64,000 bases of DNA, from contig NZ_JAABOS010000004.1 of the NCBI RefSeq assembly GCF_010078235.1, forward strand, positions 367,816 to 431,815, written 5' to 3'. Each line of letters opens with the position of its first letter. The stretch's first letter is position 1. Source of the DNA: Cognatundibacterium crateris. GTDB taxonomy: Bacteria > Pseudomonadota > Gammaproteobacteria > Burkholderiales > Burkholderiaceae_D. Shown piece by piece: positions 1 through 7,127 of the stretch. A model generated the notes under the pieces. It did no database searches. It was not told where the DNA came from and was given only the letters and a program-made list of their open reading frames with translations. Both the position numbers and the translations under genes were made by a program.

Positions 1-318
1 TCGGAGGATAATCCGGCGACTTTTCTGCAACGTCTGGATGCCTTAATAGAACATTCAGTAGCGCACTTTGAACAGGAAAATACCTGGATGGCCGAGACAG
101 ATTTCCCACCTAAGGGATGTCACGAGCAGGAACACAATGCCGTGTTAGAGATTATGCGCGAAGTGCGTCTGCGCTGCGAAGCTGGTGATAGCGAGTTGGG
201 TACCCGACTGGCAGAAGAATTGCCACACTGGTTTGAGCACCATGTGGATACAATGGATAACATGCTGGCCAGGCATATGGCGGCATTGCAAAAAGAAGCA
301 AGCGCTGTGACAGCCTGA
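1..318 (+). CDS. Hemerythrin-like protein, 5' end cut by window edge
   Basis: The reading frame is open from base 1 to a TGA at 316-318, so the start lies outside the window. The visible 105 residues carry the bacterial hemerythrin pattern: HFEQEN, then HEQEH, then HWFEHHVDTMD. These are the spaced His/Glu/Asp residues that hold a non-heme diiron centre in a four-helix bundle. Known members bind O2 and act in oxygen sensing, storage or delivery. No other domain is visible, but a fused N-terminal domain outside the window cannot be excluded. An ATG at 88 would cut through the first metal-binding helix, so it is not the start. Confidence 0.85.
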   Translation, partial: SEDNPATFLQRLDALIEHSVAHFEQENTWMAETDFPPKGCHEQEHNAVLEIMREVRLRCEAGDSELGTRLAEELPHWFEHHVDTMDNMLARHMAALQKEASAVTA

Positions 319-324
319 AATTCA

Positions 325-404
325 CTGGCTGTTGGCACTGTATGCACAACAGCCAGCATCATCTGTTCATATCAAACTGTGCAGATAAGGTCTGATATGA
401 ACAG
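325..404. terminator. Two tandem inverted repeats between convergent genes
   Basis: The first is a perfect 10-bp stem (325-334 with 347-356, CTGGCTGTTG and its complement) around a 12-nt loop. The second is a perfect 12-bp stem (363-374 with 393-404, CTGTTCATATCA and its complement) around an 18-nt loop. They fill the gap between the hemerythrin gene and the convergent S4 gene, so a bidirectional terminator is the simplest reading. Neither stem is followed by a long T run. Confidence 0.5.
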
Positions 405-427
405 TTTGATTTCATTATGCTCTGGTC

Positions 428-658
428 TCAGGCATGTACAGTGATCACAATGTCACCTAACTGTACGCGCTGACCTGCGCGGATTTTTGCCGTTTTCCTC
501 AATTCCTGTTGTCCATCTACGCGCACATCGCCGCTGGCAACGATCATTTTCCCGGCACCACCGCTGTCACACAATCCAGCTACTTTGAGTAACTGGTTTA
601 ATTCTATAAATTCCCCCTCCAGGGCGAAGCTGATCTGCTGACTCATATCTATACTCAA
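428..658 (-). CDS. S4-domain RNA-binding protein (YbcJ-like)
   Basis: A 76-residue protein that is essentially one S4 RNA-binding fold. The core (residues about 18-60) reads ELNQLLKVAGLCDSGGAGK, then VRVDGQQELRKTAKIRAGQ and a V-x-L-GD end, which is the usual pattern of YbcJ/YaaA-type single-domain S4 proteins. Members bind structured RNA, often ribosomal, but the physiological target is not known. A second in-frame ATG at 646 is possible. It stands alone, convergent with the hemerythrin gene and divergent from the bufferin operon. Confidence 0.8.
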   Translation of the reverse strand: MSIDMSQQISFALEGEFIELNQLLKVAGLCDSGGAGKMIVASGDVRVDGQQELRKTAKIRAGQRVQLGDIVITVHA

Positions 659-838
659 TTAATTCAGAAAGTGCGCAAGGATACACCAAAATTCAGGCGG
701 GACTGTTCAAACTTTTCCTATTCTGACAGGTGCAGACTGATGCAAGAGATACAGGATTTAGCGGTAGGATCTGACTTGCAAACATGTACATTCATAGTAG
801 GATGTTTTCTAAGCATAGAAAATTTTTTTTCTTTGTGT

Positions 839-867
839 GTAAGTAATCCGGCGAGCCAGGCGACTAA
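839..867 (+). promoter_or_regulatory. Candidate ECF-type promoter of the bufferin operon
   Basis: GTAAGT at 839-844 is followed after exactly 16 nt by CGACTAA at 861-867. This resembles the GTAACC-N16-CGAA consensus of the SigF-type ECF sigma factors that control several DUF2282/DUF692 operons. The predicted transcript start would be about 35 nt before the bufA-like ATG. A sigma-70-like alternative lies upstream (TTGCAA 776-781, 16 nt, TAGGAT 798-803). No sigma/anti-sigma gene is nearby, so this is a pattern match only. Confidence 0.35.
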
Positions 868-904
868 GGCTTGCAGGTTCCCTTTTTTAATTTAGGAGAT
901 AGAG

Positions 905-1171
905 ATGAGTAACAAAGCTTTGATCGCAATAGCATTGGCTGGTTTGGTCACTTCGGCTGTTGCAGTGGCCGCGGATGATGCGAAAGCACCGGCAAAAACT
1001 GAAAAATGTTATGGCGTTGCAAAAGCCGGTCAGAATGACTGCGCGACTAAAACCGGTAGCCATTCCTGCGCAGGACAGGCAAAAAAAGATAATGATCCTA
1101 ATGAATGGAAAAAAGTACCTGCCGGTTCTTGCGAAAAAATGGGCGGTAAAACTGAAGCGCCAAAAAGCTGA
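905..1171 (+). CDS. bufA1: Bufferin-type metallophore precursor (DUF2282 family)
   Basis: An 88-residue secreted peptide. Residues 1-22 form a signal peptide (positive start, hydrophobic core, AVA cleavage region). The mature part is Lys/Ala-rich with four cysteines, C35, C46, C55 and C76, the DUF2282 arrangement. In characterised bufferins some of these cysteines become thiooxazole groups that bind copper in the periplasm. AGGAG at 893-897 gives a good ribosome site. It heads an operon with the MNIO enzyme (1227) and its partner (2090), the usual A-B-C order. Family assignment is strong; the bound metal and the modified cysteines are inferred from relatives. Confidence 0.88.
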
Positions 1172-1226
1172 CCCGTCAGACATCACACACTGATTTTTCA
1201 TTTGTCCGTTTTTTAAGCAAGCTCAC

Positions 1227-2093
1227 ATGCAATCATCATCCGCAACTGCTATCGAAGGTTTTGGTGTAGGTCTCAGAACTTGTCACTACCGGGATTTTTT
1301 AAACGCTCCACAGGCGGTAGATTGGTTAGAGGTCCATACTGAAAACTATATGGGAGACGGCGGATATGATTTGCATGTGTTAGAAGTGCTACGCAAGGAT
1401 TACCCCATCAGTCTGCACGGTGTAGGCATGGGGTTAGGCTCGGCATCTGCCACCGGTGCAGGGCAGGAACAGCATCTGCAAGGTCTGAAACGATTGATAG
1501 ACAGAGTAGAGCCTGGCCTGGTGTCCGAGCACTTGTGCTGGAATGCTGTGCACAATCACTTTCTGAATGACTTACTCCCTTTACCCTTAAGCAGTGTCGC
1601 CTTGCAATTAATGTGCGAGCGCGTAGATCGCATGCAGGATGTGCTGCAGCGCCGGGTGCTGATTGAAAATGTGTCCACCTATGTGCGTTTTGCTGCTGAT
1701 CAGATGAGTGAAGCTGCATTTCTCGCAGAGCTGGTTCACAAAACAGGCTGTGGTGTTTTGTTGGATATAAATAACTTATATGTCAATCAGGTCAATCATG
1801 GTGAGAGTGCCATTGAAGCGTTACGGATTTACGCAGACTTGCCTGCTAGTACAGTAGGGGAGATACATCTGGCCGGACATTTGGATGCCGGAACTTGCCT
1901 GATTGATCATCATGGCAGCTGTGTTCATGATCAGGTCTGGAATCTGTATCAATTAGCCTGTCAGCAATTGTCTTACCAGGTTCCTGTTCTTATTGAATGG
2001 GATACGGATATTCCTGACTTGCATGTGTTGCTTGAAGAGGCGACTAAGGCAAGGCAACTGTCTGCACCGCAGCTGGCTGAGGTGAGCTCATGA
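1227..2093 (+). CDS. bufB: MNIO-family peptide-modifying oxidase (DUF692)
   Basis: A 288-residue TIM-barrel protein of the DUF692 family, the multinuclear non-heme iron-dependent oxidases. Likely metal and active-site elements: VHTENY (36-41), SLHGVG (62-67), SEH (100-102), IENVSTY (146-152), DINN (180-183), HLAGH (214-218), DHHG (227-230) and EWDTD (257-261). Related enzymes convert cysteines of the partner peptide to 5-thiooxazole or similar rings. The gene sits 55 nt after the precursor and overlaps the next gene by 4 nt (ATGA), so the products are probably translated together. Its substrate is presumably the four-cysteine peptide encoded at 905. Confidence 0.9.
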
Positions 2094-2893
2094 AGCCAGA
2101 ACTGTTTGAGTTGCAACAAAGCTTTGCCAGGGCATTGCAAAATGTACAGCAGGTGCCTGATTTATTACCTCAGCTTCAGCCTCATACCGAGTTGCAGGAC
2201 AGGTTGGCCATCTATCGCGGCAATTATGCTGCGCTGACGCTGCGCGCATTGGAGTCCGCGTATCCGGTGCTCAGATGTCTGGTTGGCGAAGATTTTTTTG
2301 CACAAATGGCCAAGGCGTTTGCGCTGGCGCATCCGTCTGATTCCGGTGATATGCATCGCTTTGGCGCTGCCTTAGCACGCTTTTTGGGTGAGGCTGAACT
2401 GGATCCAAAATATGCGTATTTTGTGGATGTGGCGCGCCTGGAATGGCAAGTGCATAGGGCTTATTTCGCGACAAATGCGGCTGCCTTGTCACTGACTGAT
2501 TTGATTCGAAAAGCTGGCGAAATGGAGCAGGAACTGACCGCTGTCAGACCTGTGCTTCATCCGGCATGTCAGTTATTCCGTTCGGAGTCAGGCGCAATCG
2601 ATGTCTGGCTTGCGCACCAAGAGACAAGTGAAAAAGCCGACCCAGATCAACATGAACTGTTGTTGCCAGTAAATTTGGAGCGGAATTTAGGCGTGCTGAG
2701 TCGCGTCAACTGGAAGATCCAGGTACATCGCATCGAAGAGCCGGCTTGGCTGGCATTGGAGCAGATACAAAGCGGGGTAAGTCTGGAGCAGGCATTTGAA
2801 GTTGCTTTACAGGCCCAGGCTGATTTCGATGTGGCCCAAGGCTTACGGCAATGGCTGGACTGGGGCTGTTTTGCTGATGTCCTGACTCAATAA
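2090..2893 (+). CDS. bufC: MNIO partner protein (DUF2063 N-terminal domain)
   Basis: A 267-residue cytoplasmic protein. The N-terminal part (about 1-95: [49 protein letters not shown]) is the DUF2063 domain. That domain is often labelled a putative DNA-binding domain but in MNIO systems acts as the partner that helps recruit the precursor peptide. The C-terminal half is the variable region of this family. The ATGA overlap with the oxidase gene supports co-translation and complex formation. A direct DNA-binding role is less likely in this context. Confidence 0.85.
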
Positions 2894-3019
2894 ATCTAAT
2901 TAGCTTTTCATAATTCAATAGCATTGTTTTTTGGTGATTTGCTGCAATGCAGTGAAGTTGCAAGTTGTTCCCAGAATAAGCAATGCAGATCCTACGTGAA
3001 ATCGAAATCGGAACACACC

Positions 3020-3490
3020 ATGAACATATTTAAATTAGCCGCCGGGCTGGAAAATGAATTCGGAAATCGCATGCAGCAATGGTTGCAGCCCTTGGCCTTG
3101 CTAGCAATACGCTGCTTTGTAGCCTGGCAATTCTTTAAGGCGGGACTGTTGAAGGTCCAGGACTGGGAGTTGACGCTGTCCTTGTTCAGGGAAGAATATC
3201 AGGTACCTTTGCTATCTCCGGAACTGGCGGCGCTGCTGGGAACAGCGGGGGAATTAGTGTTGCCACTGTTTCTGATTGCCGGCTTGTTTTCCCGTCCTGC
3301 AGCATGCGGGTTATTCATGGTGAATCTGATGGCGGTGATCTCCTATCCTTTGTTGTGGACTCTGGACTGCCCAGCAGCAATTCGCGACCATTTTTATTGG
3401 GGCGGAATGTTGCTGCTGATGATAGTAATGGGACCAGGGCGACTGAGTCTGGATGGATTCTTTAAAAACGCTTCGTCCAAATCTGCATAG
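3020..3490 (+). CDS. DoxX-family membrane protein
   Basis: A 156-residue inner-membrane protein with about four hydrophobic segments, matching the DoxX family (LAIRCFVAWQFFKAGLLKVQDW, then the ELAALLGTAGELVLPL segment). DoxX proteins are common last genes of DUF2282/DUF692 operons, and some relatives take part in thiosulfate or thiol oxidation. I chose the ATG at 3020. The frame is open back to 2924, but those 32 residues are polar, Cys-rich and unlike the family. The ribosome site before 3020 is weak. The 126-nt gap after bufC allows a separate promoter, though operon membership is the simpler view. Confidence 0.82.
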   Translation: MNIFKLAAGLENEFGNRMQQWLQPLALLAIRCFVAWQFFKAGLLKVQDWELTLSLFREEYQVPLLSPELAALLGTAGELVLPLFLIAGLFSRPAACGLFMVNLMAVISYPLLWTLDCPAAIRDHFYWGGMLLLMIVMGPGRLSLDGFFKNASSKSA

Positions 3491-3540
3491 TATTAGCACG
3501 CAATTTGATTTAAGCCAGATTTGGCTGCATTGTGCTGGCA

Positions 3541-3568
3541 TTGATTTTTTTGTGAGCAGGTCTATAAT
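3541..3568 (+). promoter_or_regulatory. Sigma-70-like promoter upstream of the lipoprotein hydrolase
   Basis: TTGATT at 3541-3546 and a perfect TATAAT at 3563-3568 are separated by 16 nt. It would give a leader of about 200 nt before the ATG at 3774. That leader holds two small perfect hairpins: AGAGT/ACTCT at 3619-3632 and AGATTT/AAATCT at 3633-3650. Apart from these the 3491-3773 gap holds nothing I recognise. Confidence 0.5.
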
Positions 3569-3773
3569 GCGCATCCCTTACCAAAGGTCAATGCTGATTT
3601 AGGGGAAAAAATAATTTAAGAGTATTTACTCTAGATTTGTAATTAAATCTATTCAGCTATTTGACCTGATGCGATACTTCATGTGAGTTTTTAGAACGCT
3701 CGTGCCATTACATGGTAATAAACAAGCGTGCGCTTCTTGTGACTTACAAACATAATTCTTACAGGAGACAACA

Positions 3774-5297
3774 ATGCGTCAACATTCAGTAATGCTGACA
3801 CTGATATCCGCTGCAGTTTTATCTGCTTGCGGTGGCAGTGGCACCCCAGGCCCAGCCGTCGACAATTCGATGGCACGTGGTACTCTGGTTGCAAATCCAC
3901 CTAATCTGGTACCGATTCCTCAGGCGAATGGTACAGCTGTCACTAAGCTGGATCCGGTTGTCTTTAAGGGCATGTTAGAGGCAGCTAAGCCAGGCTTCAC
4001 GCAGCTGACTGGCGTGCCTAAGTGCGAAATTTCCACTTACTACATGAAATACATTACCGTTGGTGGAGCGAACGAACCTACCAATGCGACTGGCGCGATT
4101 ATGGTTCCATCCGGTAGCGATCCAGCCTGTACCGGCCCACGTCCGGTTCTGCTGTACGCACATGGAACTACGACCGACAAGGCTTTCAATATGTCGAATC
4201 TGCGTGACAACCAGGAAGCCACCCTGGTCGCTGCTATGTATGCGGCTCAAGGCTTTATCGTAGTTGCGTCTAACTATGCGGGTTACGACGTTTCTTCACT
4301 GAGCTACCATCCTTATCTGAATGCAGAACAGCAAGCCAACGATATGGTTGATTCCCTGCGTGCTGCACGCAAGGCTTTCCCTGTGATTGGTGCCCAAGAC
4401 TCCGGTAAGCTGGTACTGACTGGCTATTCTCAAGGTGGTCACGTTGCGATGGCAACCCAGCGCGCAATGCAGACAACTTACGCTTCTGAATTTAAAGTAA
4501 GTGCTCTTGCTGGTATGTCCGGTCCATATGCACTGGCAATGTTGGGCGATGCTGTATTCGGTGGCGCGCCTAATGCTGGCGGTACTGTATTTACACCAAT
4601 GTTGACGACCAGTTTCCAGAAGTCTTATGGCGGTATTTACAACTCTCCAGGCGACATCTACGAAGATAAATACGCTACAGGAATCGAGTCCTTACTGCCA
4701 GGCAGCCTGAGCTTCAGTGAGTTGTTTACTACAGGTAAATTGCCACAACTGGCGATGTTTGCAGCCGACTCGCTGCCAGCCGCAAAGCCTGGATTCGGTG
4801 CATTCTTTGGTGCAGGAAATCTGGTTAAAACCAGCTATCGCAATGCCTATGTTGCTGACCTGGTGCAAAATCCTTGCGGCGCAAACCCTGCTGATCCATT
4901 GAACTGCGCTCCTGCTAACGGATTGCGTAAAGCCGGTGTTAAGAATGACTTACGTAACTACGTACCTCAAGTGCCAACCATGCTGTGCGGTGGCAATGCA
5001 GATCCAACCGTCTTCTTTGTGAGCACTCAAGCAACAGCTGGCTATTTCCTCGCAAAAGGCTTGCCTTCCGCTGCCCTAACCGTGTTAGACGTGGACTCTG
5101 CTCCGACTGGTGTAAGTGACCCATTTGCAGCTGCTAAAGTTGGCTTCGCGCAAACTAAAAAGGCAGCGATCGATGCTGCTATCGCTGCAAAGCAGGATCC
5201 GACTCAGGCAATCGCAAGCGCTTATCACGGCACTTTAGTTCCACCATTCTGCAATGCTGCAGCACGTGGCTTCTTCCAACAAGTTTTGGCTAAATAA
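3774..5297 (+). CDS. Lipoprotein alpha/beta hydrolase (secretory-lipase-like)
   Basis: A 507-residue exported enzyme. The N-terminus is a lipoprotein signal with lipobox LSAC (lipidated C19) followed by a Gly-rich linker. Residues about 125-131 (LLYAHGT) look like the oxyanion-hole strand, and GYSQGG (217-222) is the nucleophile elbow with S219. Later CGGNADPTVFF is compatible with the acid-loop region, and SAYHG near the C-terminus could supply the histidine. The fold resembles secretory lipases and large esterases; the substrate is not deducible. AGGAG precedes the ATG. It is followed 17 nt later by an OmpW gene, so the two are probably one transcript. Confidence 0.8.
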   Translation: MRQHSVMLTLISAAVLSACGGSGTPGPAVDNSMARGTLVANPPNLVPIPQANGTAVTKLDPVVFKGMLEAAKPGFTQLTGVPKCEISTYYMKYITVGGANEPTNATGAIMVPSGSDPACTGPRPVLLYAHGTTTDKAFNMSNLRDNQEATLVAAMYAAQGFIVVASNYAGYDVSSLSYHPYLNAEQQANDMVDSLRAARKAFPVIGAQDSGKLVLTGYSQGGHVAMATQRAMQTTYASEFKVSALAGMSGPYALAMLGDAVFGGAPNAGGTVFTPMLTTSFQKSYGGIYNSPGDIYEDKYATGIESLLPGSLSFSELFTTGKLPQLAMFAADSLPAAKPGFGAFFGAGNLVKTSYRNAYVADLVQNPCGANPADPLNCAPANGLRKAGVKNDLRNYVPQVPTMLCGGNADPTVFFVSTQATAGYFLAKGLPSAALTVLDVDSAPTGVSDPFAAAKVGFAQTKKAAIDAAIAAKQDPTQAIASAYHGTLVPPFCNAAARGFFQQVLAK

Positions 5298-5314
5298 GCG
5301 TGGAGATCACTCAA

Positions 5315-5989
5315 ATGATGAAAACTAAATTGGCTGCGGCCGCTTTGTTTGCCCTCGCTTCCAGCTCAGCGTTTGCTTACGACTATACTGTGCGTGGTGG
5401 TGTGATTGGTATCAATATTCACTCAGAATCGCCAGATTTCACCAGTAACGGTCCTGCATTTCTGACGCCTCAGCCTGCGGGTCTGACAGTCGGCAATGCG
5501 AAAACGCTGTTGTTTGGTCTGACCAAAAAACTCAACGATAACTTTGAGCTGGATTTCGTTGCTGGCTTGCCGCCAGAGCATGAGGTCTATGGTCGTGGCG
5601 TATTGGCACCATACGGTGTGATTGCTCGTGTGAAGCAACGCGCACCGACGGTATTTGTGAACTATAAGTTCGGTGCGCCGAGCTCAAGTTTCCGTCCTTT
5701 TGTCGGTCTGGGTATCAATTACACACAGTTCTTTGATGCTAAAACCACACCATTAAACGACATCGCTGTAGGCGGACCAACTAAGCTGAACCTGACAAGT
5801 TCGTTTGGTCTGGCGGCTCAGGTTGGTGCGACTTATCAGTTGAACGAACGCTGGTCTGTGACTGCTTCTGTCGCAACAGCTAAAGTGAAAACGGATATGA
5901 CAGCAATAACAGGTAGTATTGAACGTAAAACTACGGTTGACTTTAAGCCTGTTGTGGTTGCGGTAGGTGTTGGCTATAGCTTCTGGTAA
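5315..5989 (+). CDS. OmpW-family outer-membrane protein
   Basis: A 224-residue protein with a clean signal peptide (MMKTKLAAAALFALASSSAFA) and an eight-stranded beta-barrel pattern ending in the outer-membrane signature YSFW. The VFVNYKFG and FRPFVGLGINYTQF segments are typical of OmpW porins, which pass small hydrophobic compounds. I chose ATG 5315 because GGAGA at 5302-5306 lies 8 nt before it; a GTG at 5300 in the same frame has no such site. The upstream partner is an exported hydrolase, so the pair may release and import a hydrophobic product; this is inference from adjacency. Confidence 0.85.
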   Translation: MMKTKLAAAALFALASSSAFAYDYTVRGGVIGINIHSESPDFTSNGPAFLTPQPAGLTVGNAKTLLFGLTKKLNDNFELDFVAGLPPEHEVYGRGVLAPYGVIARVKQRAPTVFVNYKFGAPSSSFRPFVGLGINYTQFFDAKTTPLNDIAVGGPTKLNLTSSFGLAAQVGATYQLNERWSVTASVATAKVKTDMTAITGSIERKTTVDFKPVVVAVGVGYSFW

Positions 5990-6013
5990 TTCCAGTCCTG
6001 AGTCATAAAAAAT

Positions 6014-6056
6014 AAAAAACCCGGATACGCATCAGTCGTATCCGGGTTTTTTTTGT
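6014..6056 (+). terminator. Intrinsic terminator after ompW (bidirectional)
   Basis: A perfect 10-bp stem CCCGGATACG (6020-6029) with its complement at 6037-6046 and a 7-nt loop. It is preceded by an A run and followed by TTTTTTTT, so it can serve both the plus-strand ompW transcript and the convergent minus-strand signalling operon. Confidence 0.92.
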
Positions 6057-6113
6057 TTTAGCCCGCCAAATCTTTTACAGTCTCTGGATGATGGTAAGCT
6101 GCCGGTCGCAGTC

Positions 6114-7127
6114 TTACACGGCTACCTGATTGCGTCCCGCCTCTTTGGCGCGGTATAAGGCTTGATCTGCTGCTTCTATCAATGCGCTGTAGTCTTGCTC
6201 CTCGCTCAGGGTCGCGACACCAAATGAGCCTGTAATGTGTGGTAGCGCCTTATTGTGTTCATGAAAGACCCTGGCCTTAGCCAACCTGTTACACAGCCTT
6301 TGCGCAACCGTAAACGCTTGTTTTTGCGCTGTTCCAGGTAGGATTACCATCATTTCCTCGCCACCATAGCGGGCTGCAAAGTCGGTCGGCCTGAGGCCTG
6401 CATTCAATACCTTGGCAGCAGTTTGCAGTGCATCGTCACCCAATACATGTCCATAGGTATCATTGAAGCGCTTAAAGTGATCCAGGTCGACCAGTATGAT
6501 GCTGAGCGGGGTAGCGCTGGCCTGCGCCTGTTGTACCAAGGCAGGCAGCTGGCTGTTGAGCCATGCACGGTTATGTAGTCCGGTTAAGCCGTCGACCATC
6601 GATAATTGGCGATAGAATTCGCCCACCTTCTGGCGACTGCGTATCTGCGCATTGGCTGCACGTATCCGGAACGACAGCAGTTGCAGCAGATTCCTGGCGA
6701 CGCCATTGGACTCTTCAATCAGACGCCACATTGTTTCTGCTTCTATCACCAGCAATTCACTGTCCTGTATCGCAGTGACGGTGGCAGAGTGGGTTTCTTC
6801 ATCCAGCACCGATAGCTCACCTACGCATTCTCCGGGCAGGTATTGAGTAATCGTATTTTCGATATGATTATTATCGTCGTTGAGCTTACTGATACCGAGT
6901 GCGCCTTGCAATACCACATACAGTCGTGAGCCTGAGCTATTGGCATCAAGCACGATTTGTCCGGTTCTGGCGCTGACTACCGCGCAGTGACTCAGAATGT
7001 GGCGGATCAGTGGTAAATTTTGTTCAGGAATATCGCGGAATAACTGTATATCTTCGACCCGGTAATGCGTTTGATTGAAAACCATTAACTGTTCCAACAT
7101 TGATTTATCCAGATACATAGTACTCAC
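6114..7127 (-). CDS. Diguanylate cyclase with N-terminal cyclic-nucleotide-binding-like domain
   Basis: A 337-residue cytoplasmic enzyme that should make c-di-GMP from GTP. Residues about 28-150 form a CRP/cNMP-type sensor domain (GQIVLDANSSGSRLYVVLQG, PGECVGELSVLDEETHSATV). Residues about 172-337 are a GGDEF domain with the active-site GGEEM at 255-259. A product-inhibition I-site RPTD (246-249) is placed five residues before it, so it looks catalytically competent and feedback-controlled. It overlaps the HDOD gene by 4 nt and is the last gene of a three-gene operon. The ligand of the sensor domain is unknown. Confidence 0.9.
   Translation of the reverse strand: MSTMYLDKSMLEQLMVFNQTHYRVEDIQLFRDIPEQNLPLIRHILSHCAVVSARTGQIVLDANSSGSRLYVVLQGALGISKLNDDNNHIENTITQYLPGECVGELSVLDEETHSATVTAIQDSELLVIEAETMWRLIEESNGVARNLLQLLSFRIRAANAQIRSRQKVGEFYRQLSMVDGLTGLHNRAWLNSQLPALVQQAQASATPLSIILVDLDHFKRFNDTYGHVLGDDALQTAAKVLNAGLRPTDFAARYGGEEMMVILPGTAQKQAFTVAQRLCNRLAKARVFHEHNKALPHITGSFGVATLSEEQDYSALIEAADQALYRAKEAGRNQVAV

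Follow-up and report, generated by a model that had tools for sequence, protein, structure and literature searches.

The window, a 64,000-nucleotide stretch of DNA, contains on its plus strand a complete four-gene operon of the Buf1 bufferin (gig) type at positions 905–3490, composed of a DUF2282 precursor, an MNIO oxidase, a DUF2063 partner and a DoxX-family membrane protein. The first-pass annotation had proposed a complete bufferin-type operon here and our analysis confirmed it, with all four family matches well above the curated cut-offs. The gene content and the family membership are direct observations: the genes follow the order bufABC plus doxX and the precursor combines a DUF2282 match with four cysteines, features by which a Buf1 bufferin BGC is recognised. 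As judged from its sequence, this is a Buf1 bufferin operon of a known, common kind. A minus-strand S4-domain gene (428–658) lies upstream of it, and an esterase/lipase-like gene and ompW follow downstream.

The precursor gene bufA1 (905–1171, plus strand) encodes a peptide of 88 residues that matches PF10048 with 89.3 bits (cut-off 22.4) and carries cysteines at positions 35, 46, 55 and 76, in agreement with the earlier description of the peptide. By eye, residues ~1–23 fit a Sec-type signal. No NCBIfam model matched the precursor above its cut-off; the BufA2 model NF050166 gave 31.5 bits against a cut-off of 60, which is expected for a Buf1 precursor. A Buf2 precursor would be expected to score above 60 bits with this model and to have six or twelve cysteines, compared with the four of bufA1.

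The oxidase gene bufB1 (1227–2093, plus strand; 288 residues) matches MbnB_TglH_ChrH with 320.5 bits (cut-off 25) and the MNIO_BufB model NF050167 with 349.7 bits (cut-off 310), the latter identifying an MNIO of the bufferin-maturase type. Its nearest named relatives are from U. curvum (91%) and U. rugosum (86%), and on this basis the genome is taken to be that of an Undibacterium close to U. curvum. When the window protein was aligned with 80 relatives, residues H64, H102, E147, D180, H214, D227, H229 and E257 proved invariant in all 81 rows, in line with the intact metal-site motifs noted earlier for this DUF692 oxidase. Residues of this kind serve as the metal ligands in MNIO enzymes. Most of the eight align with an identical residue in the Histophilus structure 3BWW, to which bufB1 is related by sequence match (E 1.1e-33).

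The partner gene bufC1 (2090–2893, plus strand; 267 residues; PF09836, 76.1 bits, cut-off 27.2) starts with an ATG that sits within ATGA, giving the 4-nt overlap with the end of bufB1 that had been described earlier. An AlphaFold model of bufC1 built from 31 sequences reached high confidence (pLDDT 92.5), and its three best Foldseek matches were TglI in 8HCI (E 6.6e-6, TM 0.62), TglI in 8HI7 (TM 0.64) and NGO1945 in 3DEE (E 2e-3, TM 0.54), with a Foldseek rmsd of 6.2–6.6 to TglI. With its DUF2063 match and an RRE-type second domain recognised by fold only, bufC1 is a partner of PME type 1; the Pfam family NGO1945_C matches two of its 31 relatives and not bufC1 itself. A sequence search of solved structures gave no credible match for the partner or the precursor. 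The DoxX-family gene (3020–3490, plus strand; PF07681, 55.4 bits, cut-off 23.6), which the first-pass annotation had also listed, occupies the gigT position and encodes 156 residues from its ATG, or 188 if the start is taken as TTG 2924. Matches of the HvfC model to the DUF2063 partner and of the HvfX model to DoxX were below the NCBIfam cut-offs. We identified no RNA element between bufA1 and bufB1 (fold z −0.54) and no Rfam match in window positions 1–6200, and the counts of sigma-70 promoters and terminators were no higher than in shuffles.

The four-gene arrangement is not due to chance. When 80 named loci were selected by the similarity of their MNIO, the precursor and the DUF2063 protein were each matched in 79 of them and DoxX in 69, some contigs stopping early; in one locus (L013) the precursor stands behind the MNIO. 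Of the 145 genomes sampled from the family, 81 contain DUF2282 (29 of 44 genera), and of the 39 Undibacterium genomes sampled, 35 contain an MNIO, with 64 MNIOs in all; 36 Buf1 loci of this genus were analysed. The operon is one more Buf1 cluster beside the thousands already collected. Two genomes hold clusters of MNIO and DUF2063 in which neither a Buf1 nor a Buf2 precursor was matched (L182, L183). No relatives of the precursor were found in viral contigs.

The bufferin-type identity put forward in the first-pass annotation held at every testable point, but its further suggestion that the cysteine spacing and the lysine-rich core may give a variant product did not. The cysteines of bufA1 are spaced 11-9-21 and six lysines lie between the outer two (C35–C76). 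A product or metal preference unlike that of other Buf1 peptides would be in keeping with the comparison to named relatives, where the spacing is 11-7-21 in 67 of the 77 loci with a readable pattern, 11-9-21 in nine and 11-8-21 in one (80 loci with L031, L050 and L069 dropped; a stricter count took 72 loci), and where two lysines are the mode (50/77). Within Undibacterium, however, a C2–C3 spacing of 9 is the norm, found in 33 of 36 Buf1 precursors with 8 in the other three, and six lysines are present in 31 of the 36. The same spacing of 9 occurs in 18 of 28 best-scoring other loci of the family, with 8 in the remaining ten (29 loci sampled, four of them Undibacterium; L095 was dropped), as well as in Sulfuriferula and two alphaproteobacterial MAGs. 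The residues flanking the cysteines in bufA1 (CYG, NDC and SCAG) are also common to many relatives. Both the spacing and the lysine count are thus lineage traits, and after the surveys of genus, family and named relatives the spacing was ruled out as a novelty. A variant bufferin appears very improbable to us; the letters of the operon give no sign of a new product and point to an ordinary Buf1.

This architecture is consistent with several characterised systems. The Buf1 operon of Caulobacter vibrioides (CC3254–3257) has the same order, DUF2282-DUF692-DUF2063-DoxX, and likewise features a signal-bearing precursor with four cysteines and an ECF-type promoter (PMC3511200, PMC12452194). The same four kinds of protein are encoded by the gigPABT operon of Cupriavidus metallidurans, which is reported to be induced by copper and gold (PMC10304878), and by the Legionella pneumophila GIG operon (PMC5413113); gig is divergent from rpoQ-rsqA, whereas the upstream gene here is the minus-strand S4-domain gene. 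The oxazolin/captophorin (hvf) cluster of Haemophilus and Neisseria also has MNIO, DUF2063 and DoxX genes (PMC7907618, PMC2893595), but its precursor features EGKCG repeats, unlike bufA1.

Caulobacter Buf1 is reported to carry cysteine-derived thiooxazoles and to chelate copper, with the central cysteines of Buf1 modified and the outer ones in a disulfide (PMC12452194). By analogy, the MNIO and its DUF2063 partner would oxidise C46 (codon 1040–1042, plus strand) and C55 (codon 1067–1069, plus strand) to 5-thiooxazoles in the cytoplasm, both being predicted modification sites as the central cysteines according to the Fig. 3 legend of that paper. The modified peptide would then be exported by Sec, the C35–C76 disulfide would close, and the mature peptide would bind periplasmic Cu(I)/Cu(II), with DoxX in a helper role. 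A copper-binding periplasmic product of this composition is likely, and its homology to Caulobacter Buf1 suggests a role in copper buffering (PMC12452194).

The same genome (4.31 Mb) contains one further MNIO, a 572-residue chain in which MNIO and DUF2063 are fused, following a Buf2 precursor that scores 97.5 bits with NF050166 (cut-off 60). This Buf2 locus (contig C1; L001 and L234) resembles the Buf1 operon in having a bufferin maturase (NF050167, 357.7 bits) and a common promoter element, and differs from it in the type of precursor and in the single-chain maturase and partner. DoxX gave no match in the 6,001 bases examined around it.

The promoter element of the Buf1 operon is of the ECF-sigma type and lies at 838–867 on the plus strand, with TGTAAGTAAT as −35, CGACTAA as −10 and 13 nt between GTAAGTAAT and CGACTAA. 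The pattern TGTAAGTAN{12,16}CGACTAA has exactly two matches in the genome, this one and a site before the Buf2 operon, with none in the reversed control; the looser TGTAAGN{14,18}CGACTA returns the same two sites against four in the reversed control. In the window the site reads GTAAGTAAT, 13 nt, CGACTAAG; before the Buf2 operon it reads GTAAGTATC, 12 nt, CGACTAAA. The pattern had first been derived from these two sites, and a G variant from bufferin upstream regions. Transcription of the operon probably starts at this shared promoter.

Both the presence of the element and its conservation are observed in the genus. Across 39 genomes the T variant (TGTAAGT) had 28 matches, compared with 57 in the reversed control, and the G variant (TGTAAGG) 34 compared with 49. 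The totals are not above the control, which was compared by total count only, so the signal lies in the location of the sites. The 62 genus matches of TGTAAG[T/G]..CGACTA comprise 31 that share the strand of an MNIO and are located no more than 1 kb upstream of it, four on the DoxX side, and 27 in other places; the stretches upstream of MNIOs represent 0.018% of the sequence, and an even spread predicts ~0.01 matches there. In the 295,560 bases around the precursors, one match was on the antisense strand. Thirty-one of the 36 Buf1 loci carry the motif when the first base of the −10 is left free, and 30 without that freedom. Two of the 12 Buf2 loci match the same pattern; in a scored scan, agreement at 11 of 13 positions was reached by ten of the 12, where shuffles gave means near 9 and maxima of 10 to 12.

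Thirteen of these 27 remaining matches could be assigned to genes: msrB (three), msrA (one), redoxin (two by Pfam and one by look), thioredoxin (one), DUF1223 (two), YHS (one) and, by sequence, one DoxX and one DUF2282 gene. Among the other 14, some seem to lie inside open reading frames and some lack a clear neighbouring gene. The element occurred five times (L003–L007) in the 80 named loci (1.79 Mb, both strands), always upstream of a Buf1 precursor; two of these loci belong to U. curvum and U. rugosum, and the other three to Oxalobacteraceae or Burkholderiales outside Undibacterium. It was not found in the other 74 named loci with a precursor, two of which (L008 and L009) contain TGTAAGG and CGACT in an arrangement short of the full pattern. 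The five genus Buf1 loci lacking the motif (L207, L215, L218, L228 and L229) also had no DoxX match in the stretch examined, and DoxX is present in 28 of the 31 loci with the motif, the other three being cut by a contig end. Since the motif-less loci are the five uncut loci without DoxX, Buf1 operons of two types may exist in the genus. In four genomes (L247, L265, L269 and L270) doxX has its own copy of the promoter, located between the DUF2063 gene and doxX; by eye, no such copy was seen in window positions 2894–3019.

The element is similar to the meningococcal sigma-E consensus GTMAGBWTT-N12/13-CGTCTAAH (PMC2893595): compared by hand with this consensus, the two sites of the genome agree at 14 and 15 of 17 positions. 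In Haemophilus influenzae, RpoE2 has a 67-residue anti-sigma and is reported to control msrAB and a DoxX/COG3220/DUF2063 cluster, in a study under HOCl (PMC7907618). The Haemophilus/Neisseria msrAB sigma-E regulon shares with our system a small zinc-type anti-sigma and, in Neisseria, a similar promoter (PMC7907618, PMC2893595). In the genome analysed here, contig C12 (L238) carries an ECF gene of 186 residues followed by a 70-residue protein that contains HLSMCKAC and matches the antisigmaE model NF052368 with 67.1 bits (cut-off 50). This pair is on another contig than the operon, whereas the sigma gene of Neisseria lies inside the operon. A second pair of sigma factor and small anti-sigma (L239) matches NF052368 below the cut-off; at L239:73–1892 it adjoins a gene that looks catalase-like by eye.

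Of the 39 genus genomes, 35 have the zinc-type anti-sigma family. Sigma genes adjoining an over-cut-off anti-sigma fall into one group of 35 rows, with a single row from each genome, and a second group of three. The near-complete genomes without this family, G063 and G104, are also two of the three, among 33 genomes, whose Buf1 lacks the motif. The coincidence of motif loss and anti-sigma loss (Fisher p 0.017, 33 genomes) is only suggestive because G063 and G104 look like near relatives. The third motif-less genome, G147, has the sigma pair with a long-branched sigma, and in G152, which is 73% complete, the Buf1 motif was present and the anti-sigma was not found. No promoter of this type was detected within 400 nt upstream of the L238 sigma gene, the best site agreeing at 9 of 12 positions; for autoregulation of four other sigma candidates of the genome, the best agreement was 8 of 12. 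With four ECF queries from the genome, no ECF sigma gene was found near the operon in the 63 genus loci analysed, most of ~4.8 kb, and a sigma-like open reading frame is present in 23 of the 80 named loci.

The genome combines a GTAAG..CGNCTAA-type promoter with a sigma gene beside a zinc-type anti-sigma, as in an Msr-type regulon. Because the sigma-E-like promoter is shared with msr genes and the pair of sigma factor and zinc-type anti-sigma is conserved, the bufferins here probably belong to an envelope-oxidation (Msr-type) regulon and not to a Caulobacter-type NrsF system. In C. vibrioides, sigma-F (CC3253) and NrsF (CC3252) adjoin the operon, whereas the genus loci analysed showed no ECF sigma. 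Regulation by NrsF and sigma-F could draw on the resemblance of GTAAGT-N16-CGAC to the sigma-F site GTAACC-N16-CGAA (PMC3511200), which agree at 7 of 10 positions by hand, but the spacer of the Buf2 site is 15 and the sites of this genome are closer to the Neisseria consensus. In addition, NrsF (PF06532) had no match in the genome, while the same search finds it in Caulobacter; this absence speaks against an NrsF-controlled Buf1 system, and regulation of the Caulobacter kind is very unlikely. The pair on contig C12 is the likely driver.

The main function of the operon could also be defence against envelope oxidation, for example by copper-driven ROS or by hypochlorite, to which the binding of copper would contribute. 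Within Undibacterium the promoter element also precedes msrA, msrB, redoxin and DUF1223 genes, which is consistent with such a role, as is the RpoE2 control of msrAB and the cluster in H. influenzae cited above. The chemistry suggested by the genes nevertheless points to copper, and the operons of Caulobacter and Cupriavidus are described as responding to metals (PMC3511200, PMC10304878), which leaves oxidation defence as the main job a doubtful reading. We are instead fairly confident that the locus is a Buf1 operon with a copper-binding product, transcribed from the ECF promoter at 838–867 that it has in common with the Buf2 operon, with the sigma factor of contig C12 as its likely driver.

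What is new here is the regulation, and the control region is the interesting part of the locus. The link between an oxazolin-type cluster and an msrAB-type sigma factor has been published (PMC7907618, PMC2893595); our searches of one literature collection showed, among the papers listed, no report of a bufferin regulon of this kind. We lean towards the view that in Undibacterium the distant Buf1 and Buf2 operons belong to one small regulon, together with msr, redoxin and DUF1223 genes, and that this regulon is controlled in trans by a sigma-E resembling those of Neisseria and Haemophilus and paired with a zinc-type anti-sigma. If so, copper-holding RiPPs would be a standard part of the envelope response to thiol and methionine oxidation and not of a metal response alone. 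The shared promoter offers a testable reason for bufferin clusters accompanying oxidative-stress genes, ties the bufferin and oxazolin branches together through the same type of control, and singles out one candidate sigma factor.

MNIO relatives are also present in 354 of 72,556 plasmid records, all at <60% identity; 73 of these plasmids are from Escherichia and 129 are predicted to be conjugative. Single-chain fusions of MNIO and DUF2063 occur naturally in the Buf2 clusters of two Undibacterium genomes (L001:628–2346, minus strand; L234; L193) and in Buf1 clusters of other Burkholderiales (L006, L007 and L008), and a fused HvfB-HvfC is reported to have been made artificially (PMC13419390).
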